64,000 bases of DNA from Branchiostoma floridae (Eukaryota; Chordata; Leptocardii; Amphioxiformes; Branchiostomatidae), in the NCBI RefSeq assembly GCF_000003815.2, contig NC_049993.1:16636897-16700896 (forward strand). The letters run 5' to 3'. The position numbers were made by a program, and so were the translations under genes. This document shows positions 34,524-62,043 of this stretch, piece by piece. How positions within the stretch are numbered: the stretch's first letter is position 1; each line of letters begins with the position of its first letter. A model generated the notes under the pieces. That model searched no databases. It saw only the letters and a list, made by a program, of their open reading frames with translations, and was not told where the DNA came from.

Positions 34524-36135
34524 TTACAGAGGTGTTTTCTCCACCTCTGGTGTTATCTTAGACATTGACGTCATGGTGATGGTACTACCCTTCTTGGCGT
34601 ACAACGGCTGCGTCATGTGACGCCACATCACCAGGGCGACGCGCACCACTAGCAACAGGGCGGTCACGCCTAGCAACACGCAGACGTAGATGACGTTCCT
34701 CTTGGCGGGGTCCCAGTTCTTGGTCAGGTTTCCGGAAAGCGCGGCCACCACCACCACGTACGGCACCAGGGTGTAGCGGCAGTACCGATCCAAGACGAAG
34801 TTCTCCAGGAAGAACCAGACGAGGATCTCCACAAGAAGCACCGTGAACATGCCGGTTGAGACGTCCTCGTCGCTGAAGCCTCCCACGTAGATGAGCACGA
34901 TGTCGAGGTTGAGGAGGGTAGCGATGGAGGTCCAGGTGGCGTAGATGGCCAGCCCGTTGTGGACGAGCCCGCGCGTGAGCCAGAGATCGACGGGAGAGTT
35001 CTCAGCCAGCCAGGGCCCGTTCTGGTCCAGCCGGCGGTAGGAGATGAAGAGGAGGATGTAGAGGGTGAAGGGGCAGAGAGCGAGGACCACCGCGGCAGCG
35101 ATCAGCACCTCCCGATCCCACACGAACAGCCAGGCGATGTTCAGGAAGTTGTTGACGTACCAGATGACGTAAAAGGCGGGAGGGAAGAGCTCGGGAGTGA
35201 CGTAGAAGTACCCCCCGGAGTGTTTCCGGAAGAGACAGGAAGTGACGTAGATGAGCCAGGCGAAGTTCCAGGCGTAGATGAAGCCCCAGATGGAGAAGAC
35301 CCAGCCGGACGGCACCACCTCGTTGTCGTACTTGTCGGAGACGTTTCCGATGGTGCTGAGGAACAACCCTGTAGAAAGAAATGAAAGTGTGCTTTTATAT
35401 TGTGATGCAACAATTAAGATGTATAGACTAGCCGTCTGTGTTAGTCATGTTGGTGGGGGAAGTGCCAGTACATGCAAAATGATTCTGAGTCCATTATGCT
35501 GTAAAAATGTTAAAGATAGTGTAAAGTCGTCGGGACTTTACACTATCTAGTCTAGAGCATTGGCGAAAGACATAGCTACAATTGCTTAGTCATAGCCTTG
35601 GCGAGGAGAGAGTATCTATGGGAAACCCGGTAAACTAACTAGGATGACACGCAATTTAGCTCAACCGATGATAGAAGCACAGAAAAATCTGCTACCGAAT
35701 CCTAGATATATTCTTAATATCCACCTATCCTTTCCATTCACATGTAAATAATAACTGCACTTATTATTTTCAGGACTGGAGCCATTCAAAACGTTACGTC
35801 TTTCATAGCAACGGTTGTTTGGTAATAGGTACCCGCTGGTCTTTGGATTCAACTTCTTAGAAAAGAAGAAAGGCACACAAAATGCAATAATCAGAAAACA
35901 TATGCAAGGCAACCCACAGCTTTACATCTGCTTGTAGATGACGTATCATCACTTACAACTCACCTGGGATAAGGTTAACACCGTTCAGTGCGTTCATGGC
36001 AAGGGTGACGATGTAGGTTACCCAGGCAACCACCACCAGGGCCACGCCCCTCGGGCTGTGTTTGGGCGGCGGGTCATTGATGTCCTCTGCAGTCATGTTG
36101 GCGTCGGGTAGGGGTCGCTTCTGTGATATAGACAT
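34524..36135 (-). CDS. TL1: multi-pass membrane protein, TspO/MBR-like extended family
   Basis: Exon 2 is 36135-35964 and exon 3 is 35368-34524, joined G|GG, giving 338 residues. Exon 2 encodes a polar N-terminus and hydrophobic segment 1. Exon 3 begins with GLF and a sequon (NVS), then PSGWVFSIWGFIYAW and six further hydrophobic segments, about eight in all. Motifs shared with TL2-TL7: FSIWGFIYAW, WYVNN, YRRLD, HNGLAIYATW, ENFVLDRYCRYTLV. The Trp-rich spacing resembles long TspO/MBR (tryptophan-rich sensory) proteins, which bind porphyrin or lipophilic ligands; that assignment is from memory. An untranslated exon 1 probably ends at 38166 (AAGAAG before GTGAGC on the - strand). Start choice: ATG at 36135 is preceded closely by an out-of-frame ATG; a start at NMTAED (M14) is also possible. 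Confidence 0.83.
35514..35548. repeat. Perfect 15 bp hairpin in the TL1 intron
   Basis: AGATAGTGTAAAGTC and GACTTTACACTATCT are exact inverted repeats separated by GTCGG. The stem is too short for a typical animal miRNA precursor. Confidence 0.8.
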
Positions 36136-36275
36136 TGTGACATCTGTTATAAAGTCCAGAACACGGTACGGATTGCTAAATCCGGTTATCTATGTAGTAA
36201 CAGATCTTTTGTTCAAATTTACAAGCAGATAAATACCAAACTAGACATTGTGACATAAGTTATAAAGGTACATAA
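36131..36275. repeat. Duplicated acceptor region of TL1 exon 2
   Basis: TAGACATTGTGACATCTGTTA (+ strand, 36129 on) at the start of exon 2 recurs as TAGACATTGTGACATAAGTTA at ~36242, an offset of ~112 bp. It resembles the exon-edge duplications in SMC2. Confidence 0.7.
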
Positions 36276-36540
36276 CACGACACGTACTTTTCCCACCCAA
36301 TATTTTGTGGTCATGAGAAAGTAAAACCTCCGAGTTAAACGATGATTATAATACATGTATTACCATTATTGAGTTTTACACATAAGACCGATAAAGATAT
36401 ATCCGCAATCACGCGATACAGCTAGTTACATGTATTGCACGCCCAGTGCGAAATGACGACGCCCCTGAGGCGTCGCCAAAATACATTCCTGTCTACCTTC
36501 ATAATACTAGTATCTGATATACATTTAGCCCCGCGGTCAT

Positions 36541-37312
36541 GTGTATCAAGTAGGCCAAGATTGTGATGTCAGTTTTCCGAAACTGTTTGTACAGCGTAGG
36601 ACTGTGCATTCAGCTGCTGAAAGGGGATATCAGTCCATTCTGTTGACTCTGTTTGCGCAAGTGCCTCACATGTTCAAACAGGTGGGTGGCCTACTTTCCA
36701 CAAGTGACCGGAAGAATTTTGAGCTTTTTTAGGCGTTTTATCAGGCTCTCTTTTCTGCCGTTTTCTTAATGTTCGCGGCTCTGCTTAGAGAATACAGAAG
36801 AATGGCGCGAAAGGATATGAGATTATTATGATTATGATGCCCAGAAAAATACCAGTCTGGCGACAATTTGGGGCCGAGCGGACATTGGCCTGATAATTGG
36901 GACAAGCACTGATTGTGATGGTAGTGTTCCGACACCGATTCCGTGGAGTCAGTACAATTTCTACTCTTTGACCAACGATCCGCGGTCATAGATAGTCTCC
37001 AAGCAGACCCTATGATGCCTTAGATATAGTATCATAGCTGGCCAAGGACTAGTAGTAGAATAGATGGTGCCCGTTTGACTCCCTTTGGCCGGCTACACTC
37101 CTTGGCCAGCTTTGATACTATCTCTAAGGCACCGTAGGGTCTGCTTGGAGACTAGGTCATAGAGGCTGGCCTGGATAGTTGTCTATTCTGCTTGCTTGGG
37201 TGCCTCACATGTTCCAACAAGTGGTTGACCTACTTTTTGCACATAAAGAAAAATACCTGTTGGGCGGCATTCTGGACCGCGCGGACGTTAGCCTGGTAAT
37301 TTGGGACAAGCA
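36541..37312. repeat. Diverged tandem duplication in the TL1-TL2 spacer
   Basis: GTGCCTCACATGTTC and GTGGxxGxCCTACTTT occur at ~36660 and ~37200. GCGGACATTGGCCTG and GCGGACGTTAGCCTG, each followed by an ATTxGGGACAAGCA block, occur at ~36878 and ~37280. The MULE-like element at 36993-37154 sits between the halves. No coding sequence. Confidence 0.65.
36993..37154. mobile_element. Fold-back MITE with 9 bp target duplication (Mutator-like)
   Basis: The termini TAGTCTCCAAGCAGACCCTA and TAGGGTCTGCTTGGAGACTA are inverted repeats. Pairing continues inward for ~50 bp (GATGCCTTAGATATAGTATC against GATACTATCTCTAAGGCACC). The flanks GGTCATAGA at 36984-36992 and 37155-37163 are identical 9-mers, a length typical of Mutator-like elements. 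A half copy lies at 58720-58806. Confidence 0.9.
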
Positions 37313-37314
37313 AC

Positions 37315-39379
37315 CGACCGAGTGAACACATGGCCAGACCTAACGAGGATGGTATTCAGGCCAGTTTTACAGATGAAAAGACGCGGAATGCATGGAGTAA
37401 CATGTGAAATTTTAACTACATGCACCCATGAGCAGTTTGCCCATGAGGGTTTTTTTTTGTGCCCCACTCTCTGTACACAAAAAAGACTAAAATACATGAT
37501 TCGATCAGAGATGCCGCGAATGTTGTCTTAAATCTGACAGTGAGGTAAACAAGATGCAACTTTTTACATGCTGCATCAAAATCAGTGATTCTTCATCTTT
37601 TCAAGTATCTATTTTCCCAGTATCTAGACTAGGGAGGCGTGCGAGCGAGGTACCCTGGAAAACCAGACCGGCAGAGAAATTGTTCGGCAGCCATGGCAGG
37701 TCCTTCCGATGACCTTAGATAAACACACCGGGGATTTGTCATGCAGGCAGAGTAGTCTGATTTTCCAGGGTAGAGCAGGGGGAGGGGGGTGTAGTTGGGC
37801 CACTGCGGGCCGTAAGTAAAAGGTGGCGAATCGAAAAACATCTATCCAAACCTGTCAGGGTAGATTACAGTTCTTTGTTTGAACCATTTGTCTGGTCTGT
37901 TCATAGCGCTAGCATAATGTATTTCTCATCATTATCATAAGACCATTACGATTACCCCAGATGTATAGAACCAAAACAAAGCAGCCAGTACACCAAAACA
38001 TATACAGATTTCGACGCACACTAGTTCGTCTCTGCCAGTGAGAGCGAACACACGGTGGCACACACGATGTATTCGTACATCTAGTTACATCCGACATATC
38101 TACACATAACTGAGCAAATACATGTCACATCCAAATCAAAGGGTAAAAGTCTTCTCTTTGCTCACCTTCTTGTGCAAACTTGAGTTATACACCCTCGTCA
38201 GAGCTCGTGCGGTCTGTCTTTAGTGCTTCTGGACAAAGTTGTGGAACACCAAACACGCCTCGGCCACGGGACCTCAGTTACACAACATCCTCTGATGACG
38301 TCACAGTTGTGTAACCGGGTCAGTCGTTGTTTGCCTGCAGGAGGCACAAAAAAATCAACGTTCGGAATCGTGCTATCGTCGCTGAACTGAACTATCTGCC
38401 CTTTGGAAATTTTCAGATTGAAGTACTATTCATAAAGGAGGCGACAGAAGACTATCTTAAGACTTTTTTTTTGTTTCTCCATTAAAAGAAGTGTAGTCTG
38501 ACACCCCTTTGATATAAAGTCGGATCAGCTAATAATAATGTTTGGTGCATCTCATTACAGCAGGCTGCGTGGCCCACGTGAGGAGGCACGTGGATTGCCT
38601 CACATGTTGAAGCATGTATTTGTTCCTTGGTTTGACCAGGGAGGTTCTATCAATAAACCCAACAATTTGACCAAGGAAAACTTCGTGGAGTTGACCATTG
38701 TGTTCGATCATTAAACAGTAAAAAGTGCTCCTGTTTTCTCTTATTCTTTTCTTGTTGATTAAGATAAAATGGATGACCGTTGAAAAGAGCACAAAGTGAG
38801 GGAAATATTTAAATGTGTATCACTAGCACTACTAGTAATTGTGTTATGATTTATCAACAAAGGAACGCTTTCAAGCCTGGCATTCAAGGGTATACTGATA
38901 TATATCCGGTCAAGCACATGACCTCGGCGGTGTCGTTGTATAATTTCGGTAAATCAGCTTCAGAAGAAGCTAGGATTGTGTAAGTGAGAGTGACTCGGTA
39001 ACTTTTCAAGGCCATTGTGTTACCTAACGTTACCATTACGTAATCGACTTATGCAAGAATCACTACAATGGACTATACCATTACGACCCATAGGGGAAAG
39101 ATGCTTCCAAATATGTAATGCAATAAGCGTATTTTGTAGCTACCTTCCGTTCATATATTGTGTAATATATTACCAAAATCTCAGATCTCAAGTTTGGATA
39201 AAAGTAGGACATGTATTACTGTTTACCGTGTGAATATAAAACCCAACCCCCCTTTTTATTTATGGAACACACCACAAACATTGGGAACTGCCCCCATGCA
39301 TTTGATACTCAAACCAGGTCACACGGCAGTCGGAGTGGTCGCACGTCGGGGACACGCTCAGAATATCACGTACCAGTGC
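37315..39379. other. Spacer with TL1 and TL2 upstream regions
   Basis: TL1 (-) and TL2 (+) are divergent, so this stretch should carry both promoters. Apart from the possible TL1 exon 1 (38166-38290), no coding sequence was recognised. Confidence 0.5.
38166..38290 (-). other. Probable untranslated first exon of TL1
   Basis: A GTGAGC donor on the - strand (38165 downward) follows CACAAGAAG with no ATG in the preceding ~110 nt. It mirrors the short 5' exons of TL4-TL7. The 5' boundary is a guess, and no TATA box is evident upstream. Confidence 0.35.
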
Positions 39380-39489
39380 TATAAACGGTAGCGCCCATCA
39401 AATAACTCGACTCGACCGAGCCAGTGTCGTCTACGCACTCTTCCATCAACCCGAGAGGTGTCGTCGCATCTTAACTTAAGTTAAACTCG
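39367..39489 (+). promoter_or_regulatory. Possible TL2 promoter and untranslated first exon
   Basis: CACGTA at 39367 and TATAAA at 39380-39385 are spaced as in the TL4-TL7 promoters. Transcription would start near 39410. A possible donor, ACTCG|GTAAGA, follows 39489. Weaker than the other TL promoters. Confidence 0.4.
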
Positions 39490-40395: not shown

Positions 40396-41752
40396 ATGGA
40401 GACTGGGAAGTCCGGATTCCAGCACCAGCCGGCTAAGATCGCCATGATCGTGGGCGCCTGGCTCTCCTTCATCGTCATGGTCACGTTCAACGCGCTGTCT
40501 GCCAGCGGAGCTAGCAAAGGTAGGCATTTCCATCGGAAAAGTTTTCATGCCAACTATGATACAATACACCAATCATTTTCACTCCATATTGATCAGGACA
40601 CTCTGGTAATGTGTAAAGTCATCATCATCATTGTCATCATCATCATGTGTATGATATATGGCTGGAAGTTGGACATGTCCCGCGTCCGGAAATGTATGGG
40701 CCATACCAACATTCAGATCGGCCAATAGCCGATGCTGCCAATGTGTGTGTGTATGTGCGTGCGTGTGTGCATGCATGCGTGTGTCGTATGTGTTTGTGTG
40801 GGGAGGGGGGCGTGGTGTTGAAACACAAGCCGATTCTGATAGGAAGTAAGCTTGTTATTCATCTTCCTTCAACAGTATATCTGTTCTCACACCATTTCAA
40901 CGTTTTGTCCTACCCGTAGGTCTGTTTAACAGCACACAAGGCGAACTGTCTGACAAGTACTACAACGACCTGGTCCCTGCCGGCTGGACCTTCTCCATCT
41001 GGGGGTTCATCTACGCCTGGACCGCACTGTGGCTGCTCTACATCACAACCACCATCTTCCGCAAGACGTCCGAGGGGTACGTCTACATCGTGTCCGATCT
41101 GCTGCCGTGGTACTTCTTCGTCGCCTGGTACATCAACAATGCCTGCAACGTCGCCTGGCTCTTCGTCTTCGACCGGGAACAGCTCGTACTTTCCGCCTGC
41201 GTTCTCGCTATCATTCCCTTCTCTCTCTACCTCTGTCTGTTCGCTTCCTACCGCCAGGTGGACAAGCGCGGCGTGTGGTTGACAGAGAACGCTTCCGTCG
41301 ACCTGTGGTGCACCCGCGCATTTGTCCACAACGGCCTGGCCATCTACGCTACCTGGACAACTATCGCCACCCTCCTCAACTTCGGCATCGCTCTAATCTA
41401 CACCGGCGGCTTCGACAACACGGACGTCGTCACCGGTCTGCTCGCTGTCCTTCTAGTCGAAGTTCTTGGCTGGTATGTTCTCGAGAACTTCGTGCTTGAC
41501 CGCTACTGTCGCTATAACTTGATCATCTGGGTTGTGGTGATCGTTGCTCTCACCGGGAGCCTGGTGGAACACTGGGGGCCTGAGAAGAGGAACAGCATCT
41601 TTACCGCTATCCTTATTGGCCTGACCGCCTTCCTGTACCTTATTCGCCTCTGTCTTGTTGTCTATCGCCACTTCAATAAGCCTCTGTATAAGAAGTTTGT
41701 GCTACCCACCACAGAGCAGGGTAAGAACAATGGCACCTTCAACATGGCTTAA
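40396..41752 (+). CDS. TL2: multi-pass membrane protein, TspO/MBR-like extended family
   Basis: Exons 40396-40519 and 40920-41752 join G|GT into 318 residues. The ATG sits in AACCATGG, a strong Kozak context. Exon 2 encodes METGKSGFQHQPAK and membrane segment 1. Exon 3 opens with GLFNST (sequon), then VPAGWTFSIWGFIYAW, WYINN, VAWLFVFDRE, HNGLAIYATW and ENFVLDRYCRYNL, ending GKNNGTFNMA. About eight hydrophobic segments. It is closest to TL3 (same length, same GTF tail), which lies tail-to-tail with it; the pair looks like an inverted duplicate. Ligand and location unknown. Confidence 0.87.
40620..40800 (+). repeat. Microsatellites in the TL2 intron
   Basis: ATCATCATC-type triplets (40620-40647) and a TGTGTGTG/TGCGTGCG/CATGCATG tract (40742-40800). 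Confidence 0.85.
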
Positions 41753-42484: not shown

Positions 42485-42490
42485 AATAAA
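42485..42490 (+). terminator. TL2 poly(A) signal AATAAA
   Basis: CGCAATAAAGCA lies ~730 bp after the TL2 stop. The long 3'UTR before it has no coding sequence. Confidence 0.55.
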
Positions 42491-43684: not shown

Positions 43685-45678
43685 CTAAGTCATTGTAAAA
43701 GTGCCGTTGCTTTTTCCCTCGACTGTGCTCGGAAAGATATGCTTCTTATACAGCGGATATTTGCAGTGGCGATAGATAACAAGGCAGATGCGGATAAGAA
43801 AGAGGAACATGGCGAACCCGAGAAGGGCAGCAGTGAAGATGCTGTTCCTCTTCTCAGGGCCCCAGTGTTCCACCAGACTACCAATCAGCGCAATGATCAC
43901 CACTAACCAGATGACCAATGTGTAGCGACAGAAGCGATCAAGAACGAAGTTCTCAAGAACAAACCAGACCAGAACTTCGACTAGAAGGAGAGCGAACATG
44001 GCGGTACAGACGTCGGTGTTGTCTAGCCCGCCGGGATAGATAAGAGCGATGCCAAGCCCGAGGAGGGTGGCGATAGTTGTCCAGGTGGCGTAGATGGCCA
44101 GGCCGTTGTGGACAAACGCCCGTGTGAGCCAGAGGTCCCACGGCAGGTTCTCTGTTAGCCACACGCCGCGCCTGTCCACCTGGCGGTATGAAGCGATCAG
44201 ACAGATGTACAGGGTGAAGGGGACAAGAGCAACGACACAGACGGACGCTATGAGAGACTCTAAGTCGAAGACGAACAACCAGATGACGTTGACGATGTTG
44301 TTAAGGTACCAGGCGACGAAGAAGTACCACGGCAGCAGATCGGACACGATGTAGACGTACCCCTCGGACGTCTTGCGGAAGATGGTGCTGGTGACGTAGA
44401 GAAGCCACAGCGCGTTCCAGGCGTAGATGAACCCCCAGATGGAGAAGGTCCAGCCGGCTGGGACAAAGTCGTTGTAGTACTTGTCGGATATCTGCCGCTG
44501 GGTGCTGTTAAACAGATCTGTGTATAGAATGTGAAACGGGAGTCAGTTATTCGGGAATAACATGGGGACGATGTCACGAGGGACAGCAACTATTGTTAAA
44601 CTAACTGTATCTGTGCCAATTTCTTTGCATACATACATGTAAGAAGTATATAATTATGTATTTGCAAAAGAAGCTTACAATACAAAGCTTAATGTATCGT
44701 TCTGCATAATTCATAAACATTTACTGTTTTTTCAATGAGGAGAACTGGTGTTTGCTGTTTCGGCAGGGGTCAACGGTGATGTTTGTTTTGCAGCTTATCG
44801 TAAACAATACATGACAGGTGTTTTGAAAGCGTTCGTTGAAATGTCTCACTCCAGGCCAGAAAATAACAAGAAACAGCAGCTACAAGCTTATTATGCAAAC
44901 ATTTTACATCTATCACAGAATAGAACTTCCTTATATCAAACACAGTAACCATAAGGCCTTCTCGTCGGGTTACCACAAACAACGCTTGTGGTTAGCAAAC
45001 AAGGATTGTGAAGTAGATTGGTGTAATAAAACGACAACGTGACTCCTGACCCAGAAATGTGGACTAGGGTCAGCAGGAGGTCAGGGACAACAGGTGTGCA
45101 GGATAGTTTCTACCAGACTCCCGCCTGGCCGAATAGCAATAGAGGAATTTGACCAAGTTAGGAATAAAAGCCCAGTAGGAGTTAATTGGACTGGGAGTGA
45201 ACCTCATTACCCGATTAGAATTCAAACTGTTTTGCCTTTCTTGGGTGGACGAAAAGCTCTTGACATCAACTTCAGTAACTCTTAACTTCTTATCACCACT
45301 CCTGTTGGCTACAAGGGACATGGCCATGTTCGTTTGTTTCTAACCTTCTCTATACAGGGAAATATTTTGAAATCGGCAGAATTAAGCGCGGGTACCTGAC
45401 GCTTCGAATTTTTAACCGATTTCTCTTGTCTGACGAAGACCTTTAGCATCCACAATTTCCCACGCATAATAAGGTATCGTGGTAAACTCTGTTAAGAGAA
45501 AGGTAATACCCATCTTATCCAGTACATAGCAATTTTGAAAGAACTCCAACCTACTTCTGTCGATGCCGCTGGCAGAGATGGCGTTGAAGATGACCATGAT
45601 GATGTAAGTGACCCAGGCTCCCGCGATCATCGCGATTTTGGCGGGCTGGTGCACGAATCCGGACTTTATGGTTTCCAT
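43685..45678 (-). CDS. TL3: multi-pass membrane protein, TspO/MBR-like extended family
   Basis: Exon 2 is 45678-45555 and exon 3 is 44517-43685, joined A|AT, giving 318 residues, the same length as TL2. The ATG is in AACCATGG. The start METIKSGFVHQPAK nearly repeats TL2. Exon 3 begins NLFNST (sequon), then VPAGWTFSIWGFIYAW, WYLNN, VIWLFVFDLE, YRQVD, HNGLAIYATW and ENFVLDRFCRYTLV; the tail is GKSNGTFTMT. At the exon joint TL3 has R-N-L-F where the others have G-L. A likely untranslated first exon ends at 46015 on the - strand (TTTCCTAAG before GTAAGC), with a CACGTG at 46120-46125 upstream. Head-to-head with TL4. Confidence 0.87.
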
Positions 45679-47537: not shown

Positions 47538-49650
47538 ATGGTGAGTTAAGCATGCTTAGTTTCTTACCATTTGGTTGGGAAAACATGTTTAAAGTACTCA
47601 AGCAAGGTGTTAGATGTGGTCCTATTATCTATAATCGTCCGGCCAATTCAACTGTGTTTAAGTAGTGCATGTAGTTATAGCAAAGTCTGGAGTCTCGACA
47701 GACATCGTTTGAGCATCAGATTGACGTGATGTTTTACGTAATTTATGACAAAAGATCTGTAGTAGACTGGCTATGAACATTTATACAGTCTATCTAAGAA
47801 ATCACACAGTAAATGTGAGCAATCACTGAAGAATGGTTCTTTAACCAGCTTTGTACTGTTGATGTCACACAGACTCTCGACGCTACGTTTACCATGGAGG
47901 AAGGCAAAGAACAGCCGCCCCGACACAAGCCTCTGGGCATCGTGCTGATCGTGTTCGCCTGGTTCACCTATGTCATCAGGCTGACTATCGGCTATTTTAG
48001 ACAGTTTGACGTTATTAAGGGTGAGTTAAGATAATCGTTAACGAAGGGTGTACTTGTCACGCTTATCTTTTTGTAAGATCATCACCGGGCTTTCACTTTG
48101 TATGGCTATAATAGAAATAAAATAGAAGCCAGTTAATTGCGCAACGGATAATCGCACACTTATGTTAATTGCATGAAATCCCAGAATTCCGCGGTGATGC
48201 GGTCTTTTTTGCTGAAAACTCTCATGGCTTTGACTATTTGAGAAGCTTTCAAAAAGGTTTTGTGAAACAATACGCCGCGCAGAGAAAGGCTAAACAATTC
48301 GCCTACGTGTTCAGACTGGTGTTCAGCTGGCTCAGGCAATCAGCCGCTGTTAGGGGTGAGTTAAGGCAATTGTTTAACAAAATAATCATTAGCCAAGGGT
48401 GTCACGTCGACCATTTTCAAGCGCGTATTTTGTTGACATCGCTGAGCTTGCTATAACTATAGTTTTCAAATAACGGAATGATTGTGTTTTTAATTTGGTT
48501 CCAACGATATAGTGTTGCTGAGTTGTGCAGTTGCAAGAGTATTAACACTATCCGAGGCACGTCAAGTTCAAGTTAAGAAACTGCAGATGGCTGAGAATGC
48601 TTACAGCTTTAGTGAAACAATAGTATATGCAGCACAGAAAAAGACTCTAACGTCCTGCACTACTGGAAACGACCTGCCTAGCCACCCAGCTACGTCCTTG
48701 TCACGACAAAGTGATCTCTTGAGACATAGATCAACTAGACATGTTCGCAACTTCAGTGCATTGACAATTACAACGATACTGTATTATGTTTCTCTACAGG
48801 TCTGTTCTCGAGCACCGTTGGCAACACCTCCCGCTTCTTTCCGAACGAGATCGTGCCGGCTCCGTGGGTCTTCGACATCTGGTTGGTCATCTACGGCTGG
48901 GGCTTCCTCTGGCTCATCTACGTCACGGTCTGCGTCTGTCGTAAAAACTCCCGCGGCTACTTCTACGTCACTCCCGAGCTCTTTCCTCCCATCTTTTACG
49001 TCACCTGGTACGTCAATAACTTCTTCATCCTCTCCTGGACCTTCCTCAATGACTCGCTCCAACGTGTAGGCGCTACCATGCTCCTCGCTCTCATCGCTTT
49101 CTCTCTCTACTACATGCTGTACATCTCCTACCGTCGTGTGGATCAGAACGGGCCCTGGCTGACCGAGAACGCACCGGTAGACCTCTGGCTCATTCGCGCT
49201 CTCGTTCACAACGGGCTGGCCATCTACGGTACCTGGGTCACCATCGCTACCCTTGTAGGTTTCAGTAATGTCCTTACCTATGAGAGTGGCTACGACAACG
49301 AGGATGTGTCCACGGGCATGCTGGGCTTACTGCTAGCAATCATCCTCGTCTGGTTTGTCCTGGAGAACTTCGTCTTCGAGCGGTACTGCCGATACACCCT
49401 GGTGCCATTTGTGGTGGTGGTCGTCGCGCTTTCGGGCCTTATTGACAAGTACATCCGATTCACCGGCAGCTTGGAGAAGAGGAACGCCATCTTCGCGTGC
49501 GTGATGCTAGGCGTATCCTCCTTGGTGTTGGTGGTTCGCTTCTCATTGGTGCTCTGGCGTCACGTGACGCAGCCGCTGTACGTCAACACCGTCAAGACGA
49601 CGTCGGTGAAGAAGTCGGAACTGAACGGAGGGTTCACAACAGAGCTTTGA
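47538..49650 (+). CDS. TL4: multi-pass membrane protein, TspO/MBR-like; start codon split off by an intron
   Basis: The ATG (47538-47540) is the last codon of exon 1, directly followed by GTGAGT. Exons 47873-48020 and 48800-49650 complete 333 residues in frame (M|TLDATFTMEEGKEQ...). A second in-frame ATG in ACCATGG begins MEEGKEQPPRHKPLGIVLIV, and membrane segment 1 follows. Exon 3 starts GLFSSTVGNTS (sequon), then PAPWVFDIWLVIYGW, YFYVTPELFP, WYVNN, HNGLAIYGTW and ENFVFERYCRYTLV. The tail RHVTQPLYVNTVKTTSVKKS is shared with TL5-TL7. About eight hydrophobic segments. A decayed extra exon 2 lies in the second intron. Confidence 0.88.
48122..48180. mobile_element. Partial AGAAGCC-family MITE
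   Basis: TAGAAGCCAGTTAATTGCGC is the left end of the family seen at 2042-2200 and 50951-51133. The right end is missing. Confidence 0.6.
48281..48356 (+). pseudogene. Relic second exon in the TL4 intron
   Basis: The frame reads FAYVFRLVFSWLRQSAAVRG followed by GGTGAGTTAAGGCAATT. It matches TL6 exon 2 (FAWITYVIRLVFSFLRQSGAVKG) and its donor better than TL4's own exon 2. About 15 bases have been lost around the WITY segment, and no good start or acceptor precedes it. It is either a leftover of a tandem duplication or a rarely used exon. A partial MITE (48122-48180) lies just upstream. Confidence 0.75.
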
Positions 49651-50006: not shown

Positions 50007-50119
50007 GTTTTTGAAAACGTTTATACATTTGTCCTGTCAATAACTTTTCTATTAACAAAAATATTTAGCTTTCTGACAAAACGCTGAGATGAGCTCGACC
50101 TCTATGGCGGATTGATACC

Positions 50120-50252: not shown

Positions 50253-50284
50253 ATTGAAACCGATAGAAAAAGTCTCGCTCTAAC

Positions 50285-50940
50285 CAGGGATATTCAATAT
50301 AATGACCTCATTTCAACACGTGTCCTAACGTGTGAGATTTTGGTGATAAGCTGACTCCTCCCCTCAGGTATTGGGCGCATCAAACAAACACATTTTTGTA
50401 TTTGTGGAATCCTACAAACGGACCTGTCTCAACTCGCCCCAAACGTACACAAAGGCGAGTACTCGTCGTTTCAGCAAATAAATACAATATTTCTATTATG
50501 TGTCTCCTATTGGTCAAGCCATTATAGACATAGTGAACCAGATATTCCCAACTTTCCAGTGTCTCTGAGTTGGAGTTTTGAAACATTCTTTGGGTCAACA
50601 TCTTCAGTAAATCTGCCAACTTGGGCGGGTCCCTTTAATTTTCAACCACCTGGAAAGCTAGCAAACAGCTGCCACTTACGTATACGCAACTGACATAATG
50701 AGGGTGGGAGTTGTGTAATAATTAGCAAGCACGTGTACACGTGTTTAGGGAGGTACTGTATATAAAGGTGCAGCAGAGAACGCGGTTTATTCCAGCATTA
50801 TCAGTTGTGGACAGCAAGAAGTTAAGCTACGCCCTGAGAATGGTGAGTAACAAATTGAAATAGTATTTTATCTTTCAGTTGATTCAGATAGCAGTATGTA
50901 AAAAGACGTGTTATGGCAAAGATAAAGGGTTGCATGAATC
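50285..50940 (+). promoter_or_regulatory. TL5 distal promoter and first exon (copy 1)
   Basis: CACGTG occurs at 50730-50735 and 50738-50743, TATATAAA at 50759-50766, and an exon ending GAGAATG|GTGAGTAA (ATG 50840-50842). The whole block is repeated at ~52010-52653. Conserved upstream words shared with TL7 include TTGGGTCAACATC, TTTTCAACCACCTGG and GACATAATGAGG. Class II promoter. Confidence 0.75.
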
Positions 50941-53900
50941 TTAAACAGTACAGTAGAAGCCGCGTAATTGTACACTCCATTTGCTAGTGCATTTCGTTTA
51001 ATAATTATCTGAATGGTGCAACAAAGCGAAGTTATTAAGCTTAAGCTAGACCGCACCACCATGGGATTTGAGGATTTCGTGCAATTAACAGAAGTGTGCG
51101 ATTATACGTTGTGCAATTAACTGGCTTCTACTGCACCATCACTTACTGGTTGTCGGAGTAGCAGGTACGCGCCCAGGGCAACTCGGGGGCCTACGCACCA
51201 AGTGCCGCTTTACTACTCAGCGTTGCCTGTACGGTGTTTATATATATGTGATCCGCCCAATATATCGGGGTGGGCAAAGTGGTGAGGCGATGCTTTGGGA
51301 ACGAGTTTTCCGAATTGATTAGTGTTCTTCTATCTTCAAGCAGTTAATGATCTGTTCATCGTACGGTAGGTCTTCAATAACTAGGTTACTTTTACAGATA
51401 AATAACTGTAACAGTGACTTTTCTCCCTGGATCAGAAACATCTTATGAGACAAACTCTACTGTACACAAAGAGTGTGTGAGGGATAACTGACCGACCCGA
51501 GAAAAGCAGGTGTTGGTCAGTGGTGGATGTGTTGTACCGAACAACTTTGTTAGGTCCGTAAACTTCGGAGAGCCATAGACTCACTGAAAAGGCCGCCGCA
51601 GAAGCTTCGCACACCAAAAAAATTTGTGTCCGTAAGTTACTTTCCTTGTGGGGTTCTTGTACGTCTTAGCCTTATCTTTTCACTGGAGACATTTCTCACG
51701 CTCCTCGAGATGTTGGCTGCAGGTGTCAGTCACGTCATGGTAGATATATGGTATTCCTAGAGCTATCGTAGAGTACAGCTTATTGCCATTAAGTACGGTA
51801 GGAGCATCCTCATAAGATAGCTTCAAACAACATGTATAATCAGATGTGCAACGCCGGATAGGCGTATGACAGGTCGTTCTGATATAACCGCGTGCCTGCT
51901 AAGCTGGTGTTATGTTAAAGGCAGTAATACTAGCTAGACATGTATAGATACAGATTTAAACATGTCCAGGATTTCCTAGGTGTACCTTATCAATTGGGTA
52001 GAATATTTGGGTGTACTAACGCGTGAGATTTCAGTGATGGGCTGACTCCACCCCTCACGTATTGGGCGCATCAAACAAAAACATGTAAATGTTCTGTATT
52101 TGTAGAAGCCTACAAAAGGATCTGTCTCAACTCGCCCCAAACGTACACAAAAGCGAGTACTCCTTGATTTAGCAAACAAATACAACATTTCTGTTATGGG
52201 TCTCCCATTAGTCAAGCCATTATAGACAAAGTTAGCCAGATATTCCCAACTTTCCAGTGTCTATTTCTGACCCTGAGTTGACTGTTGAGTTTGTAAACAT
52301 TCTTTGGGCCAACATCTTCGGTAAATCTACCGTCCCTTTAATGTTCAACCACCTGGAAAGTTGGCAAACAGTTGCCACTTACACAACTATGACATAATGA
52401 GGGTGGTAGTTGTGTAATAATGAGGATGGTAGTTGTGTAATAATTAGCAAACACACACACACGTGTTTACGGAGGTACTGTATATAAAGGTGCAGCAGAG
52501 ACAACGGTTCATTCCAGCAGTATCACTTGTAGACAGCAAGAAGTTAAACTACGCCCTGAGGATGGTGAGTAATAAATTAGTATTTTATCTTCTTTCAGCT
52601 GATTTAGATAGTTCTCTACAAAGACGTGTTATGGCAAAGATAAAGGCTTGGTAAGCTGGTGTTATGCTAAAGGCAGTAATACTGGGTAGACATGCATAGA
52701 TACAGATTTAAACATGTCCAGGATTTCCTAGGTGTACCTTATCAATTGGGTAGAACATTTGGGCGGCGCACGATTTGTCCTGTTCAACCCTAAAAACAAA
52801 CCAACTAATATTGACTCTATCTCTTAAACTTACTGTCAATACGATGACGACATCAAGCTTTAAAGCCAATTTGCAAGCCTGCCACTTGAAATTACATCTC
52901 CACGCTTTGACGACTTGGATGTTGTTTATAGCGCGGGGGTCGTGGACTAACTGCAGCAGGGTGTTTGGCCCAGAAGCCAGAGGTCCTGGGTTCAAATCCA
53001 ACCTTGTTAACGAGCTTGTGCTGTTTGGCAAGGCACTTTAAACGAATTTCCCAGCTCACTTTGCCCAGAGGTAAAAATTGGTGCCTGACTTCGTTTGGGG
53101 AGGTAAAGTGTGATCGCGTGGTGCAGCGGCAGCGTGTTTGGCTCAGGACCGAGAGGTCTCGGGTTCGAATCCTGCCGTGTCATCGACCGTACCCTAGACG
53201 GAGTGGAAAACAAATAACAGTTAACCCACTGCCCTTAAGAAAGGCTATGGTACTACTTTCACCCTTTGTGTTTATTTCCAGACTTCTGAAGCCAATATGA
53301 CCATGGAGGAAGTCGATGAGAAACCCCAGCCGCCCCGACACAAGCCTCTGGGCATCGTGCTGATCGCTTTCGCCTGGATAACCTACGTCATTAGGGTCAC
53401 TTTTGGCTATTTTAGACAATTTGACGTCATTAAGGGTGAGTTAAGACAATTCGTTAACGACGTAATCTTTTACCGTGGGTATATTTGTCATACCCTTTTC
53501 AAGATCATCGCCGAGCTTTTTATGGATAGCTTTTATGGATATATAATTGAAATAACAGAATGATGGTGTTTTTGCTGAAACCTATCATGGCTGTGATCAT
53601 TCGCAAAAGCTTTAAAAAAAGTTTTTATGAGCGATACACGCGCAGAGCAGATAAAGGCGAAGCAGTCCACACTACTGCAAACGACGTGTCTCAAGTAAAG
53701 TCACCAGCTACATCCTTATCACGAAGTAATCTTGTAAACCATAGAATTGTCAGCAACTTCAGTACATTCATTTGACAATCACAACGATACTAAATATTAC
53801 TATGTCTCTCTACAGGTCTGTTCTCTACCACCGCCAGCAACACCTCCCGCCTGTTTCCAAACGAGATCACGCCGATGTCGTGGGTCTTCAACATCTGGTT

Positions 53901-54666
53901 GGCCATTTACGCCTGGGGCGTCCTCTGGCTCTTATACGTCACAGTCTGCATCTGTCGTAAGAACTCTCGCGGCTACTTCTACGTCACTCCCGAGCTCTTC
54001 CCAACCTCCTTCTACGTCATCTGGTACTTCAACAACCTCTTCGTCCTCGCCTGGGAATTCCTCAATGACTCATTCCAACGTGTGGGTGCTACCATGCTCC
54101 TCGCTCTCATCGCTTTCACCACCTTTTACATGATGTACATCTCCTACCGTCGGGTGGACCGGAACGGGCACTGGCTGACCAAAAACGCCGCCGTTGACCT
54201 GTGGCTCATTCGACTTCTCGTTCACAACGGCCTGGCCATCTATGGTACTTGGGTCACCCTTGCTTGTCTTCTAGGTTTCGGCACTGTCCTCACCTATGAG
54301 AGTGGCTACGACAACGAGGATGTGTCCACGGGCATACTGGGCTTACTGTTGGCAATCATCCTCGTGTGGTTTGTCCTGGAGAATTACGTCTTTGAGCGGT
54401 ACTGCCGCTACACCCTGGTGCCGTACGTGGTGGTGGTGGTCGCGCTGTCCGGAACCGTCGACAAGTTCTTCAAGTTCTACGGTGGTTTCGAGAAGAGGAA
54501 CGCCGTCGTCGCATGCGCGTTGCTAGCTGTGTCCTGCTTGGTGTTGGTGGTTCGTTTCTCATTGGTCATCTGGCGTCACGTGACGCAGCCGCTGTACGTC
54601 AGCACCGTCAAGACGACGTCGGTGAAAATGTCGGAACTGAACGGAGGGTACATAACAGAGCCTTAA
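50840..54666 (+). CDS. TL5: multi-pass membrane protein, TspO/MBR-like; two alternative first exons
   Basis: Either ATG, 50840-50842 or 52562-52564, each followed by GTGAGTAA, joins exon 2 (53282-53435) and exon 3 (53816-54666), giving the same 335-residue protein in frame (M|TSEANMTMEEVDEK...). The internal ACCATGG start is present too. Exon 3: GLFSTTASNTS (sequon), SWVFNIWLAIYAW, YFYVTPELFP, WYFNN, YRRVD, HNGLAIYGTW, ENYVFERYCRYTLV, tail RHVTQPLYVSTVKTTSVKMS. About eight hydrophobic segments. The nearest relative by eye is TL4, then TL6. Confidence 0.87.
50951..51133. mobile_element. AGAAGCC-family MITE, copy 2
   Basis: CAGTAGAAGCCGCGTAATTG and CAATTAACTGGCTTCTACTG are imperfect inverted termini. 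It lies between the two TL5 first exons, only in the longer duplicate. Confidence 0.75.
52010..52653 (+). promoter_or_regulatory. TL5 proximal promoter and first exon (copy 2)
   Basis: CACGTG 52460-52465 and TATATAAA 52481-52488; the exon ends GAGGATG|GTGAGTAA (ATG 52562-52564). It is close to copy 1 from ~50285, including the start of the intron (AGACGTGTTATGGCAAAGATAAAGG). A following ~110 bp block (52654-52765) also repeats 51899-52010, so a unit of at least 750 bp was duplicated in tandem and ~950 bp separates P and Q only in copy 1. Confidence 0.78.
52925..53240 (+). repeat. Two tRNA-derived SINE-like copies in tandem
   Basis: At 52925-53075 GGTCCTGGGTTCAAATCC, and at 53100-53240 GAGGTCTCGGGTTCGAATCC, act as B-box sequences. 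Each is preceded by an A-box-like GTGGTGCAGCGGCAGCG or CTAACTGCAGCAGGG. The 3' part of the first (GGCAAGGCACTTTAAAC) matches the copy at 56565. They lie just upstream of TL5 exon 2. Confidence 0.7.
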
Positions 54667-55352: not shown

Positions 55353-55358
55353 AATAAA
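55353..55358 (+). terminator. TL5 poly(A) signal AATAAA
   Basis: TGCAATAAAGATT lies ~690 bp after the TL5 stop. The intervening AT-rich sequence has no coding feature. Confidence 0.5.
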
Positions 55359-56333: not shown

Positions 56334-56367
56334 CACGTGCTTGCCGAGCTGAGACACGGTATATAAA
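56334..56367 (+). promoter_or_regulatory. TL6 core promoter: E-box plus TATA box
   Basis: CACGTG 56334-56339 and TATATAAA 56360-56367, 20 bp apart. The exon ends GCTGATG|GTGAGTT (ATG 56441-56443). Class I, like TL4. Confidence 0.75.
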
Positions 56368-56440
56368 GCCGTGCCACGGACTGACTGGAGCGCCTGGACC
56401 AACTCGTGTTAGTGTTACCGACGTGACAGACTTCGCGCTG

Positions 56441-58609
56441 ATGGTGAGTTAAGTATTATGTTGCTTATTCTATTCACATTTCATTAGGATGTTGTTGAAT
56501 TTACTCAATGGTTCCCACGCAAAAAGAACTGGCGTTGAATTTATAATATGGTTATAATTAGGGTGTACGTGGTGGCGTCTTGTGTTGCATAACTGGTAGA
56601 GTGTTGGGCTCGGAACCTAGAGGTCCCGAGTTCGATACTCGCCTTGCCTCCGACGGTGCATGTGCCCCTGGGAAAGGCACTTTACTTCACCCAGGTGTAA
56701 ACATGGGTACCTGACTTCGGTCGGGTATTTAAAAGACTACCTTTTTCCTTTTGTCTGTACTTTGTTGTAGGTGGCACTGTTAGATAAGTTACTAACTTAC
56801 TAACTCGGAGTTTTGTTTGAATGTAATAACAGACTTCTGGGGCCCTCTGCTACGTATATATCTTGTGCTTGTAAACGTATTTGCCCGTGCAACGCAAACG
56901 CTAGCTAGCTATAGTCTTGTGCTGAACAAAAAAAAAACAGTCTCCAGCAGTGCAATAGCCTTCGGGGTGTTGTCACTTGGATTGTCCTGACTGTATACAT
57001 AAAAGAATGCAACCTTATGGATCAAATCACTTGTTAGTAGATTTTCCATTTTAATCATTCCCCAGGTTATTCAAACACCGTTATACTGTTGACCCCCCAC
57101 AGGCTGTCGATGCTCAGTTTACCATGGAGGAAAGCAAAGAACACAAACACAAGCCACTGGGCATCGTGCTGATCGTCTTCGCCTGGATAACCTACGTTAT
57201 CAGGCTGGTGTTCAGCTTCCTTAGACAATCAGGCGCTGTTAAGGGTGAGTTAAGGCAATTGTTAACACAGCGTGTACTTGTCCCTTCTGTAACCATTTTC
57301 AGCATGTTCTATTGTCAGCTCTGAGCTTTACAAAGACATGCTGCAAGATAGTTTGCCTTTTTGAAATTAACATCTTGATTGCCTTCGACAAGAAGGCTAT
57401 TCGTGTTATGGTGTTGTGGGTCTCTATGAAGGTCAGCATATAACTCAAGAAGTTGTGGATAGATCTTGATGTTATTTGATAGGTGTGTAGCAGTTCTAGA
57501 AAATAAGGTCGAGGTCGAAAATGGTTTACGTGGCATTTTCGTACTGCACTGCAGTGGACTTTGACTTCTTGGACTTCTTGTCGAAGGCAATCCACAAACA
57601 AACGAAATAGATAAATGGCACGTCAGATCTAAAGCAGCAAATGTTTGCTTTGTGTGAAAATCCTTATGAACACGAATTGTCTCTTGAAACATACGTCAAC
57701 ACAGAGTTATCAAAAAGTACAGTAGACTGACAGTCCATACTGTGTCTTTCTATAGGGTTATTCATCACCAGCGAAGGCAACATCTCCCGCCAGTTTCCAA
57801 ACGAAATCGTGCCGGCTCCTTGGGTCTTTATGTACATCTGGGTGATCATCTACGCCTGGGGCTTTCTCTGGATCATCTACGTCACGGTCTGCATCTGTCG
57901 TAAAACTTCCCGTGGTTACCTCTACGTCACTCCCGAGCTCTTCCCAACCTCCTTCTACGTCACCTGGTACGTCAACAACCTCTTCATCTTCGCCTGGGTG
58001 TTCCTGGACGATTCACTACAACGTGTGGGGGCTGCCATGCTTCTTGCCCTCTCTGCCCTCTCCCTCTACTACATGATGTACATCTCCTACCGTCGAGTAA
58101 ATCAGAACGGGTCCTGGCTGACCGAGAACGCCCCTGTTGACCTCTGGCTCATTCGGGCTCTCGTTCACAACGGGCTGGCCATCTACGCGACCTGGGTCAC
58201 CATCGCTACTCTATTAAGCTTCGGCAGTTGTCTCACCTATGAGAGTGGCTACGACAACGAAGATGTGTCCACTGGCATGTTGGTTTTGCTGGTCGCAATT
58301 ATCCTAGCGTGGTTCTTCCTGGAGAATTTCGTCGTTGAGCGGTACTGCCGCTACACCCTGGTGCCGTACGTGGTGGTGGTGGTCGCTCTCTCCGGCCTTA
58401 TTGACAAGTACATCACGTTCACCGGTGGTTTGGAGAAGAGGAACGCCATCTTATCCTGCGTGTTGCTGGGCGTGTCCTCCTTGGTGTTGGTGCTTCGCTT
58501 CTCATTGGTGATCTGGCGTCACGTGACGCAGCCGCTGTACGTCAACACCGTCAAGACGACATCTGTGAAGATGTCACAACTGAACGGCGGGTACACAACA
58601 GAGCCTTAA
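56441..58609 (+). CDS. TL6: multi-pass membrane protein, TspO/MBR-like; start codon split off by an intron
   Basis: The ATG at 56441-56443, last codon of exon 1, joins 57103-57244 and 57756-58609 into 332 residues in frame (M|AVDAQFTMEESKEHKHK...). The internal ACCATGG start is kept. Exon 2 encodes membrane segment 1. Exon 3: GLFITSEGNIS (sequon), PAPWVFMYIWVIIYAW (one residue longer than TL4), YLYVTPELFP, WYVNN, YRRVN, HNGLAIYATW, ENFVVERYCRYTLV, tail RHVTQPLYVNTVKTTSVKMS. About eight hydrophobic segments. Its TM1 exon is the best match to the relic exon in TL4. Confidence 0.88.
56565..56760 (+). repeat. tRNA-derived SINE
   Basis: A-box-like TGCATAACTGGTAGAGTGTT, B box GAGTTCGATACTCG, then CCCCTGGGAAAGGCACTTTA and CGGTCGGGTATTTAAAAG. 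The clearest member of the family in this window; it lies in the first intron of TL6. Confidence 0.78.
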
Positions 58610-58719
58610 ACCGTGTGGTCACCTCGCCTATAAATGGTTCATACCACCAAAAAATTGCTGAAGTTATAATCTCGAACCAGATCCACGGTGCGTAATGTAA
58701 AGTATCAAACTTCCCTCCG

Positions 58720-58806
58720 GTGTCCGTTTGACTCCCTTGGCCGGCTACAATCCTTAGCCAGCTTTGATACTATCTTATGGCACCGTAGAATCTGCTTGGA
58801 GATTAC
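58720..58806. mobile_element. Half copy of the 36993-37154 MITE family
   Basis: GTTTGACTCCCTTGGCCGGC, AGCTTTGATACTATCTTATG and GTAGAATCTGCTTGGAGA match the right half of the element at 36993. The left half is absent. Confidence 0.8.
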
Positions 58807-59358
58807 TCAAGTTATACAACATTGTAGTGTGCATTTGAAGCTTTTAATAATTCTGTTGCAACTTTCTAATTTCACAAAAAAGTCATAGGTCTTGGTAGAT
58901 AGGCTATGCTTGTAAGGCACGATATAGAGAGACATTGATTTGTATGTACACACTGGCATAGAAGCATACTGGCAGATAGATTGTGCATATGATCATACAT
59001 ATGATAAATGGTTGGAGATTAATTTTAATTTGTTATTCTATATCTGTGCATCTTTGTAACGAAGTAGTGTGTGCAATCTATTTCAAGTTGGTATATGGAT
59101 ATGCTGTTGTTTTAATATCGGTATCAGTGTTCGATATTAATTAAGTCTTCCATGGAGCATCAAATTGTGTGTTTTGTACTCACAAGCAGGGTATCCTTAT
59201 GAAAATAAGGCCTGTGGTTAAAAATGAAAGCAGTATATTTCGCTATCAATGAATTGCAATGAATATAGCATTACCTTTATTCCTTTGATTTTACATATAA
59301 CCGATCTTTGTGCCCCATTGTTTATTGTTTATTGTTCATTTACTCCTTTAGTTGTTGG

Positions 59359-59381
59359 AATAAAGTTGCAATTGGAATAAA
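59359..59381 (+). terminator. TL6 poly(A) signals (two AATAAA)
   Basis: AATAAA at 59359 and 59376 lie in GGAATAAAGTT repeats ~750 bp after the TL6 stop. Confidence 0.6.
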
Positions 59382-59744
59382 GTTTTTAAAAAGTATCCGT
59401 AATTTTGTCTTGTCAATATCTTATCCTTAATTGCCAACCCCATTTCTTATAACGGTGACTTGAAATAGGTCTCTGTGAAGAACATTCATACTCAGCGCAA
59501 TTGGTCCAACCACGTGTATGGGCATGTGAGGGACTTTGAATAAGCTAACTAAACCTTTCATGAACAGGGGCCATCAGACATAATCGTACCAAACATCCTT
59601 TTGAACTGGACCCAAACTTCTACAAACTACAAACAACCATCACTTTTTTAAAGAAGCAAACCCTTTTATTTATGTTGTCATTGGTTCATTTATATATATG
59701 AAGAACAGATAGAAGAACTGCTCAACTCAAAAGTGGCCATTACA

Positions 59745-59990
59745 AAGGGCTGACCCCCCAGTAAACTACTTTCAAGACGTTCCTTGGGTCAACATCATCA
59801 ATAACGTCCTTTGGGCAGGTCAGTTTAATTTTCAACCACCTGGAACTGGGAAAGCAAACAGTAAACAAACGCCACTTACACAACGAAGACATACATGATG
59901 ACATAATAATGACATAATGAGGAGGGGGTTGTGTAACATTTAGCACACGGACGGACACGTGTTTATGGGGGGGGGGGCGTCTATAAAGGT
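59745..59990 (+). promoter_or_regulatory. TL7 promoter (class II) with E-box and TATA box
   Basis: CACGTG 59956-59961 and TATAAA 59982-59987. Upstream blocks TTGGGTCAACATCATC, TTTTCAACCACCTGGAA, GACATAATGAGGAGGGGGTT and GTGTAACATTTAGCA are collinear with both TL5 promoters. A run of ten or more G separates E-box and TATA. Confidence 0.75.
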
Positions 59991-60063
59991 GTGTTATTTA
60001 CAAAGCAAGCTTCGTTTGTGGGAATCAAGAAACTAAACTACGTTCATACGCCCCCTGCCTAGA

Positions 60064-60642
60064 ATGGTGAGTCAAAAGTTCTTCACTTAGCTTCTTGACG
60101 TATAGATATACAAAATCAAAGACGTTTAGATGCATACATTCCAAACAGTCCGACCGTTATTTACGTTATTACGGGGTTGTCAGACACCAGCGGGTCCATG
60201 CCAAGGGTCACTCGGGGACCTTAGCCCAATGTGCCGCCTACCCAACCCTGCTGGTCCCGGCCCAATCTACTGTTGATATCGCAGTGGGTACTGATTCAAA
60301 GATAGGAAGTGATATTTAGCTACAGAATTGACGAGAGCCTGTATCTCCAACAGTTATAGTGTTCAACTTCATTGTATCATAATTGGTATACGTACGGCAG
60401 CAAATTGAGGACAATTTGGATTGGGACAGTCGGGAATGTGCGTAGTCACGTACAAAATTCAACTTTTTTGAGACGGTAAAAGCTACCGTGTGTAGATGGA
60501 CGGCACCGGTCAGATTGACAAAACAAAGACAAGCTAGCATAGTGTTAATGTCAGTTATAGATAACGGAAAAAGAGAATTTGCTACCTCGACACTCGAAAC
60601 TTAGTGAACACTGTCAAACCATTCATCTTCCAGACTTAAGAC
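60064..60642 (+). other. TL7 first-exon ATG: makes a two-codon upstream ORF
   Basis: Exon 1 ends GAATG|GTGAGTCA (ATG 60064-60066). Splicing to the acceptor at 60633 gives ATG ACT TAA. The next AG (60640) also leads to a stop within four codons. The spliced leader therefore has a minimal uORF before the real start at 60655. Confidence 0.65.
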
Positions 60643-60654
60643 GCCAAATTGACC

Positions 60655-62043
60655 ATGGATGGGACAGAAGAGAAACCCCAGCCGCCCCGACACAAGCCTC
60701 TGGGCATCGTGCTGATCGTGTTCGCCTGGTTAACATACGTCATGAGGCTTGCGATTGGCTGGATGGCTGAGTCCAAGCTTGTTCCAGGTGAGTTTAATAA
60801 AGCGTCGAACGTAATGCCTGGGTTGTCCTCTTATAAGTTCTGGACTCGTTTTTTTTGTGTTGATTGTTAAGAAATTGAATGAAGTGAAGAAGCACACAGT
60901 TCTCCCTCAAGATTCAATCCCATCTTCTTTTTTGGCGAAGCTTGTTATGCTATGGACATTCCACTACCAAATCAGTAGGAATGACCTAGGAAAACATAAC
61001 ATAACATTCTCATTGTAAAAGCATTAGGAAAAACGTATTGAAACGTCAATGTGTATTTAAGTGCATATAAAATATTTGCTTCCATCTATAGCTAATGCTG
61101 TGACAGCAAGTGTTAGCAATTGACCAATATTCTTCAAACGATGAGAAACAGCTTCTCTAAACATCGGTAAAACATTTCAGTTGACTTGACTGTTGCTCTT
61201 TCCGTAGGTTTGCAGGCTACGATCACCAACGGATCTCGCCTCTTCCCCAACGAGCTCAGCCCGTCCTTCTGGACGTTCCTCGGCGTCTGGCAGACCATTT
61301 ACGCATGGAACTTCCTCTGGCTCATCTACGTCCTCACCACCATCTGCAGGAGAAACTCCCGCGGCTACTTCTACGTCACGCCCGAGCTCTTCCCAACCTC
61401 CTTCTACGTCGTCTGGTACGTCAACCATATTCTGCTCACCTGTTGGCGCTACCTGAGCGCCTCGCGGTCCGAGCGTGTGGGCGCCGTCATGGTCCTCTTC
61501 CTCTCCGCTTGTACTCTCTACTACTTGCTGTACGTCTCCTACCGTAGGGTGGACCGGAGCGGGGCATGGCTGACCGAAAACGCACCGGCAGACCTCTGGC
61601 TCGTACGAATCCTAGCTCAAAACGGGCTGGCCATCTATGCGACCTGGTCCACTATCGCCACGCTCATCAGCTTTGGCAGCACTCTCACCTACGCCGGCGG
61701 CTACAACAACGAGGATGCGAGTACTGGCATGCTGGGCTTGCTGTTGGCGATCACGCTTGTGTGGTTTGTCCTGGAGAACTTTGTATTCGAGCGGTACTGC
61801 CGCTACACCCTGGTCCAATACGTTGTAGTGGTGGTCGCGCTGTCCGGAATCTTGGACAGGAACCAGGCCGACTTTGGGAGGAGGAACATCGTCCTCACGT
61901 GCGTGCTGTTGGTCGTGGCCTCGCTGCTGTTGGTGGCTCGCCTTTCATTGGTCATCTGGCGTCACGTGACGCAGCCGCTGTACGTCAGCACCGTCAAGAC
62001 GACGTCTGTGAAGATGTCACAGCTGAACGCCGGGTTCGCTTAA
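60655..62043 (+). CDS. TL7: multi-pass membrane protein, TspO/MBR-like
   Basis: Exons 60655-60787 (from ATG; the exon starts at 60634) and 61208-62043 give 322 residues. The start is in GACCATGG, matching the internal start of TL4-TL6. MDGTEEKPQPPRHKPLGIVL is followed by membrane segment 1. Exon 3: GLQATITNGS (sequon), FWTFLGVWQTIYAW, YFYVTPELFP, WYVNH (the second N of the WYVNN motif lost), a 2-3 residue insertion (SASRSERVG), AQNGLAIYATW and ENFVFERYCRYTLV; tail RHVTQPLYVSTVKTTSVKMS. The most diverged of the + strand group. About eight hydrophobic segments. Confidence 0.87.

Follow-up and report, generated by a model that had tools for sequence, protein, structure and literature searches.

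The function of TSPO, a protein of five helices located mainly in mitochondria, remains a matter of dispute. Canonical TspO/TSPO proteins (PF03073; PDB 4uc1, 4ryi and 2mgy) have about 160 residues, five hydropathy peaks and a five-segment core with invariant P, F, W, Y, W, Y, W and A. This core is also present in the products of seven clustered genes, TL1–TL7, of the amphioxus Branchiostoma floridae, which extend over positions 34524–62043 of the window, that is, the whole stretch of 64,000 nucleotides analysed here (NC_049993.1, positions 16636897–16700896; contig C15 of the genome searched). The TL proteins differ from canonical TspO in having eight hydropathy peaks, in scoring under the Pfam cut-off and in being encoded apart from the canonical gene cluster of this genome. 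Like the long prokaryotic proteins annotated in several records as ‘tryptophan-rich sensory protein’, they show eight peaks in the same order, and TL1–TL3 keep most of the segment-2 signature and the segment-5 Y-x-x-W-x-x-x-A motif. Unlike these long forms, they carry additional residues in the segment 2–3 interval and the segment 4–5 loop (WLTEN region), a C-terminal ENF-RYCRY motif, glycosylation sequons in loop 1 and introns. Taken as a whole, the data are best explained, with moderate confidence, by an array of seven eight-segment membrane proteins belonging to a long TspO-like branch.

Among the papers listed from the literature searched, mostly open and in part covered by very broad queries, none appears to be a dedicated description of a long TspO-like family. 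No function test of the prokaryotic long forms was found there either, including the accessible parts of PMC3790746, PMC9333335, PMC8243069, PMC6032217 and PMC4677103. The main text of PMC3790746, on TSPO evolution, is without the words amphioxus and Branchiostoma. In PMC9333335, altering the clustering threshold brings two unannotated Danio rerio proteins together with the TSPO group; these are possibly vertebrate long forms and serve as a lead only.

Relationship to prokaryotic long forms and to TspO

The preliminary description of this DNA had recognized seven intact paralogues of 318–338 residues with a common exon plan, which is borne out by gene models free of internal stops (Table 1). 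Each consists of a short first exon encoding hydrophobic segment 1 and a long second exon encoding segments 2–8, separated by a phase-1 GT/AG intron 380–1037 base pairs long. Pairwise identity ranges from 43 to 80%. Ratios of nonsynonymous to synonymous substitution rates (dN/dS) are 0.15–0.30 by YN00 (8 of 21 pairs solved) and 0.23–0.56 by NG86 (all 21 pairs); since all pairs lie below 1, the seven genes are coding and under purifying selection.

Profiles of 33 prokaryotic long forms, the seven TL proteins and ten canonical TspO proteins were compared with hhalign, using 60 column-shuffled decoys per pair. The long forms match TL with a score of 131 (E 1.3e-18; decoys ≤24.0), TL match canonical TspO with 51.6 (E 4.2e-7; decoys ≤23.8) and the long forms match canonical TspO with 38.0 (E 5.3e-5; decoys ≤20.6), while reversed profiles score 13–17. 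With the addition of TLx, an eighth family member encoded outside the window, the first two scores become 137.0 and 59.1. The five-segment part alone yields 110.8 between long forms and TL (60 decoys ≤20.7). It is thus very probable, from these profile scores, that the first five TL segments are homologous to the prokaryotic long forms and, through these and directly, to TspO. An internal duplication relating the N- and C-terminal parts was also considered (scores of 14.4 and 14.3) and is not supported, these values lying near those of the C-terminal decoys, none having been run for this pair.

Prokaryotic relatives were found among plasmids, where a tblastn search of 72,556 records with TL2 returned 40 records at E≤10. 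The best matches, all within TL2 residues 3–204, come from Peptoclostridium (3e-5) and Thermus (5e-5 and 8e-5); those at 3e-5 and 8e-5 are annotated as tryptophan-rich sensory protein and that at 5e-5 as hypothetical protein. Among the 20 plasmid matches listed, nine carry the former name, ten the latter and one has no annotation. Six bacterial plasmid proteins all align collinearly with TL, and the five with annotated genes have 241–314 residues; ‘tryptophan-rich sensory protein’ is the record name in Peptoclostridium, Thermus, Nostoc and Staphylococcus xylosus, and ‘hypothetical protein’ that in Picosynechococcus. Patterns built on TL alone gave no relatives in a first scan of genome_contigs or in a scan of viral_contigs. 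An alignment-based genome_contigs scan matched at least 592 stretches, of which at least 561 encode relatives. From these, the 80 best loci were retained, a sample biased towards the Thermus query; they belong to Chloroflexota, Actinomycetota, Bacillota, Cyanobacteriota, Bacteroidota, several archaea including a Lokiarchaeon, and others. Removal of one locus with a broken frame (L040) left 79 long forms, 33 of which are in alignment A6, all of them also in A3 and A4. Some relatives, such as the Lokiarchaeal L086, stem from unannotated contigs. Used as a query against the whole amphioxus genome at E≤0.1, L086 matches only TL2, TL1 and TL3 (best E 2.9e-13), and its match to TL2 covers residues 26–232 of 266. 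These sequence searches support long, eight-segment prokaryotic tryptophan-rich sensory proteins (~260 residues), and not five-helix TSPO, as the nearest relatives found. The TspO relatedness initially proposed therefore stands for the first five segments, which are clearly homologous and keep the core residues, but the link is indirect and the placement shifts to the long prokaryotic forms.

In the Pfam scan, which had been suggested as a check on the family, TL2 matches TspO_MBR (PF03073) with 21.5 bits, under the 24-bit cut-off, and exon-2-only TL6 and TLx score 10.4 and 15.8 bits; because the cut-off was tested and not reached, the TL proteins are not filed as Pfam TspO/MBR members. Long-frame matches in eight source genomes (open frames of 262–333 residues) score 20.7–28.3 bits against the same profile, six of nine lying above the cut-off, and one of the eight genomes also holds a canonical TspO (104.8 bits). 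Two of five plasmid long forms match it, both slightly under the cut-off. Chance-level matches to RND permease, DUF420 and CATSPERB in single-exon NCBIfam/Pfam scans were rejected as helix composition. The sole PDB match, to a plant-virus coat protein (E 0.54), was rejected too.

Several results weigh against the assignment to a long TspO-like branch. In the Pfam scan at E<1, TspO_MBR is matched by TL2 but by none of the other six full-length TL proteins, and none of the seven reaches the cut-off; sequence searches of the PDB with TL and long-form queries gave no relative; and the last three segments alone have borderline scores of 15.1, where the decoys reach 14.2, and 18.6 with TLx, where they reach 17.2, so that their homology is not demonstrable by sequence alone, the scores barely exceeding the decoys. 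The absence of any TL protein above the Pfam cut-off, together with the compositional bias of the helices, could be read as the mark of an unrelated eight-helix family that resembles TspO through its Trp-rich helices only. Such an origin is very improbable, however, in view of true profile scores of 38–131 against ≤24 for shuffled decoys and ≤17 for reversed profiles, of prokaryotic long forms that bridge both sides and mostly exceed the Pfam cut-off in the eight genomes (6 of 9), and of an archaeal long-form query that matches array genes only.

Segment count, core residues and predicted topology

When hydropathy is averaged by alignment column, eight peaks emerge both for TL and for the 33 prokaryotic long forms at all three thresholds used, compared with five in the ten canonical TspO proteins (four at the strictest threshold); single-sequence scans of TL yield 6 to 14 overlapping peaks. 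Eight core residues, namely P, F, W and Y of segment 2, W of segment 3 and Y, W and A of segment 5, are invariant in all seven TL proteins and all 33 long forms, and also in the ten canonical TspO proteins, with F shifted by one residue. In TspO structures solved so far, the tryptophans of segments 2 and 5 face the ligand cavity. The five-segment core might form a TspO-type cavity holding a lipophilic ligand (porphyrin, bile pigment or sterol), with a ligand-binding core rated an even prospect, and the three extra segments may contribute a partner or transport surface.

Divergence within the family also weighs against the assignment to a long TspO-like branch. The segment-3 Asn (N84 of the R. 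sphaeroides sequence), kept in TL1–TL3 and TLx, is lost in TL4–TL7 (I, V, I and L); TLx deviates at two core sites, with segment-2 Y replaced by F and segment-5 W replaced by F; and among 48 reference columns, each at least 80% conserved in the 33 prokaryotic forms, TL1–TL7 keep 17–25 (25, 25, 23, 21, 17, 20 and 19, respectively). The segment-2 signature P-A-G-x-x-F-[SA]-I-W-G-x-I-Y is kept in TL2 and TL3, present with PSG in TL1 and altered in TL4–TL7. Motifs initially described as common to all seven proteins are likewise not all universal in their alignment: FSIWG occurs in three of seven (TL1–TL3), W-x-x-NN in six (NH in TL7), YRRxD in four (YRQVD in TL2 and TL3, YRRVN in TL6), HNGLAIYxTW in six (QNGL in TL7) and ENFVxxRYCRY in five (RFCRY in TL3, ENYV in TL5).

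This pattern bears on whether the copies differ in function. In a simple dosage array, they would share one function and an unchanged ligand, as the dN/dS values below 1 in all pairs and the eight core residues invariant in TL1–TL7 would allow; identities between clades down to 43% and the loss of the segment-3 Asn and FSIWG in a single clade speak against this possibility, which is considered unlikely. Ligand diversification is itself a tentative proposal: the loss of both features in TL4–TL7 is compatible with a changed ligand range in these four proteins.

The loop between segments 1 and 2 contains an N-x-S/T sequon in all seven TL proteins, TL2 and TL3 sharing one site and TL1 and TL4–TL7 another, and TLx has the sequon NTT there. 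It is the sole stretch with a sequon in all seven, other sequons being scattered. In the same 30-residue stretch, a sequon is found in 6 of 77 prokaryotic relatives (the other two of the 79 lack the segment-2 motif used for the count). With segments placed by hand, the loops and tails taken as cytosolic contain 14–16 Lys and Arg residues and the outer loops 4–5. The N terminus is accordingly predicted to be cytosolic and loop 1 lumenal or extracellular. The topology argument is weakened by two observations that run counter to it: the sequons at residues 165 of TL2 and 158 of TL6 fall in a presumed cytosolic loop, and the combined length of the presumed cytosolic loops and tails exceeds that of the outer loops.

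A cytosolic N terminus with a lumenal or extracellular loop 1 would not fit the mitochondrial outer membrane, and the TL proteins are likely to reside in secretory or surface membranes, and not in mitochondria. If loop 1 is N-glycosylated outside the cell or in the lumen, the site of action would be the plasma membrane or the secretory pathway, where the proteins could serve as binders, scavengers, translocators or sensors. Retention of the TspO-type core residues would also suit a mitochondrial TSPO-like role, with the array supplying extra outer-membrane copies for heme or sterol handling. That role is improbable given that canonical TSPO is encoded elsewhere in the genome, that the loop-1 sequon is present in seven of seven proteins despite its different position in TL2 and TL3, and that the TL proteins have three additional hydrophobic segments.

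The gene cluster and related loci in the genome

By identity, the genes fall into three groups, TL1, TL2 with TL3, and TL7 with a TL6 and TL4–TL5 lineage in which TL4 and TL5 are closest. In a quick tree of TL1–TL7, the 79 prokaryotic long forms and four of the six plasmid proteins, the seven occupy one side of a branch opposite the 83 prokaryotic relatives (SH-aLRT 100). Whole-genome searches (513,431,437 bases in 431 contigs) with TL2 at E≤0.01 return TL1–TL7, a decayed partial copy on contig C9 and pieces of a diverged relative on C15, and the TLx query reveals no further member. Tree and searches together support, within this genome, the expansion proposed as lineage-specific in the preliminary description: the TL family is locally expanded in this genome, and the copies would have arisen through local duplication. 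The term tandem array holds in that the genes are clustered, but they are not all arranged head to tail, TL1 and TL3 being on the minus strand and the others on the plus strand. Between TL4 and TL5, two intergenic stretches are 80.5% alike. Directly before TL5 lies a weak Rfam tRNA match (31.7 bits; gathering threshold 29); ARAGORN finds no tRNA.

The diverged C15 relative, TLx (L124, L125), lies 103–118 kilobases before the window start. Its model comprises five joined exons with GT/AG ends and consistent phases, its first and last exons not having been found, and its product is 36–40% identical to TL1–TL7. A phase-1 intron of TLx sits where the single TL intron sits. On the simplest reading of these gene structures, the downstream introns would have disappeared in the array's ancestor before its duplication; a gain of introns by TLx is the alternative. 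Loss of downstream introns is the usual pattern for recombination with complementary DNA.

The C9 copy (L127) derives from TL1 exon 2, with 88–93% amino-acid identity in three frames and broken reading frames. It was rejected as a spliced retrocopy because it also includes about 2.5 kilobases of 3′ flanking sequence, with the end of the adjoining TPR gene; exon 1 has no significant match at this copy. On C148, the canonical TSPO region (L106, L107) contains four matches resembling a first exon, one more partial match of this kind and two matches to later exons. With at least four first-exon-like pieces, canonical TSPO may itself be multi-copy in this genome, so that the expectation of a single- or low-copy family in animals may not hold here.

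Elsewhere in the window, a large open frame encodes about ten 44-residue TPR repeats (132-base-pair tandem units) and a DUF294 nucleotidyltransferase-like match, and another encodes a reverse transcriptase (RVT_1, E 1.9e-22) that is probably part of a retroelement.

Table 1. Genes of the TL family, related loci and other features (window positions, or contig positions where a contig is named)
Feature	Position	Strand	Exon 1	Exon 2	Residues	Loop-1 sequon	Remarks
TL1	34524–36135	-	36135–35964	35368–34524	338	NVS	FSIWG and segment-3 Asn kept
TL2	40396–41752	+	40396–40519	40920–41752	318	NST	
TL3	43685–45678	-	45678–45555	44517–43685	318		Sister of TL2 (76%), inverted
TL4	47894–49650	+	47894–48020	48800–49650	325	NTS	
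TL5	53303–54666	+	53303–53435	53816–54666	327	NTS	
TL6	57124–58609	+	57124–57244	57756–58609	324	NIS	
TL7	60655–62043	+	60655–60787	61208–62043	322	NGS	Earliest split in the TL4–TL7 clade
TLx	C15:16533806–16518831	-			271	NTT	Eighth member
Partial TL1 copy	C9:25003889–25004709						Decayed
Canonical TSPO matches	C148:387085–407516	-					All on the minus strand
Similar intergenic stretches	50320–50932, 52011–52650						Between TL4 and TL5
tRNA-like match	53112–53182	+					Before TL5
TPR open frame	29403–32582	+					
Reverse transcriptase open frame	13824–15098	-					

Neighbours of the prokaryotic long forms and implications

Pfam was also used to scan 134 of the 153 open reading frames nearest to the 80 prokaryotic loci, picked mechanically by length, after 19 short frames had been dropped. 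The commonest neighbour match is MerR with a B12-binding domain, in 5 of 134 (L008, L012, L014, L026 and L028), all from Chloroflexota, which dominate the sample; L026 and L028 belong to one assembly. DUF1295, ABC transporter parts and 2-oxoacid dehydrogenase parts follow closely with three each, and the neighbours also include one photolyase (L025), two squalene/phytoene synthases and two methionine sulfoxide reductases. Eight of the source genomes, four of them chosen for the MerR–B12 adjacency, have 2–7 B12-binding_2 matches each, which by informal judgement makes the adjacency in these four look more than chance. The CarH/LitR type of MerR–B12 protein senses light. A link of the prokaryotic long forms to photo-oxidative or porphyrin stress is a lead, one that says nothing direct on the animal proteins.

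A wider scenario can be put forward speculatively. An animal eight-helix TspO-like branch may have moved to the surface or secretory pathway, gained a glycosylated loop next to the cavity and, after the loss of most introns in a single ancestor, expanded into a cluster of receptors or transporters, each for other photodynamic or lipophilic compounds. The branch would possibly have a relative in a prokaryotic light-stress protein, the gene of which adjoins B12-dependent MerR regulators in some Chloroflexota.

The array and the prokaryotic long forms point to a second, larger branch built on the TSPO core, with members in bacteria, in archaea and in the genome of at least one animal, where it is expanded. 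Within one animal, it offers natural variants of this core, with the segment-3 Asn present or absent, and a glycosylated loop 1, if true, would place the branch outside mitochondria.

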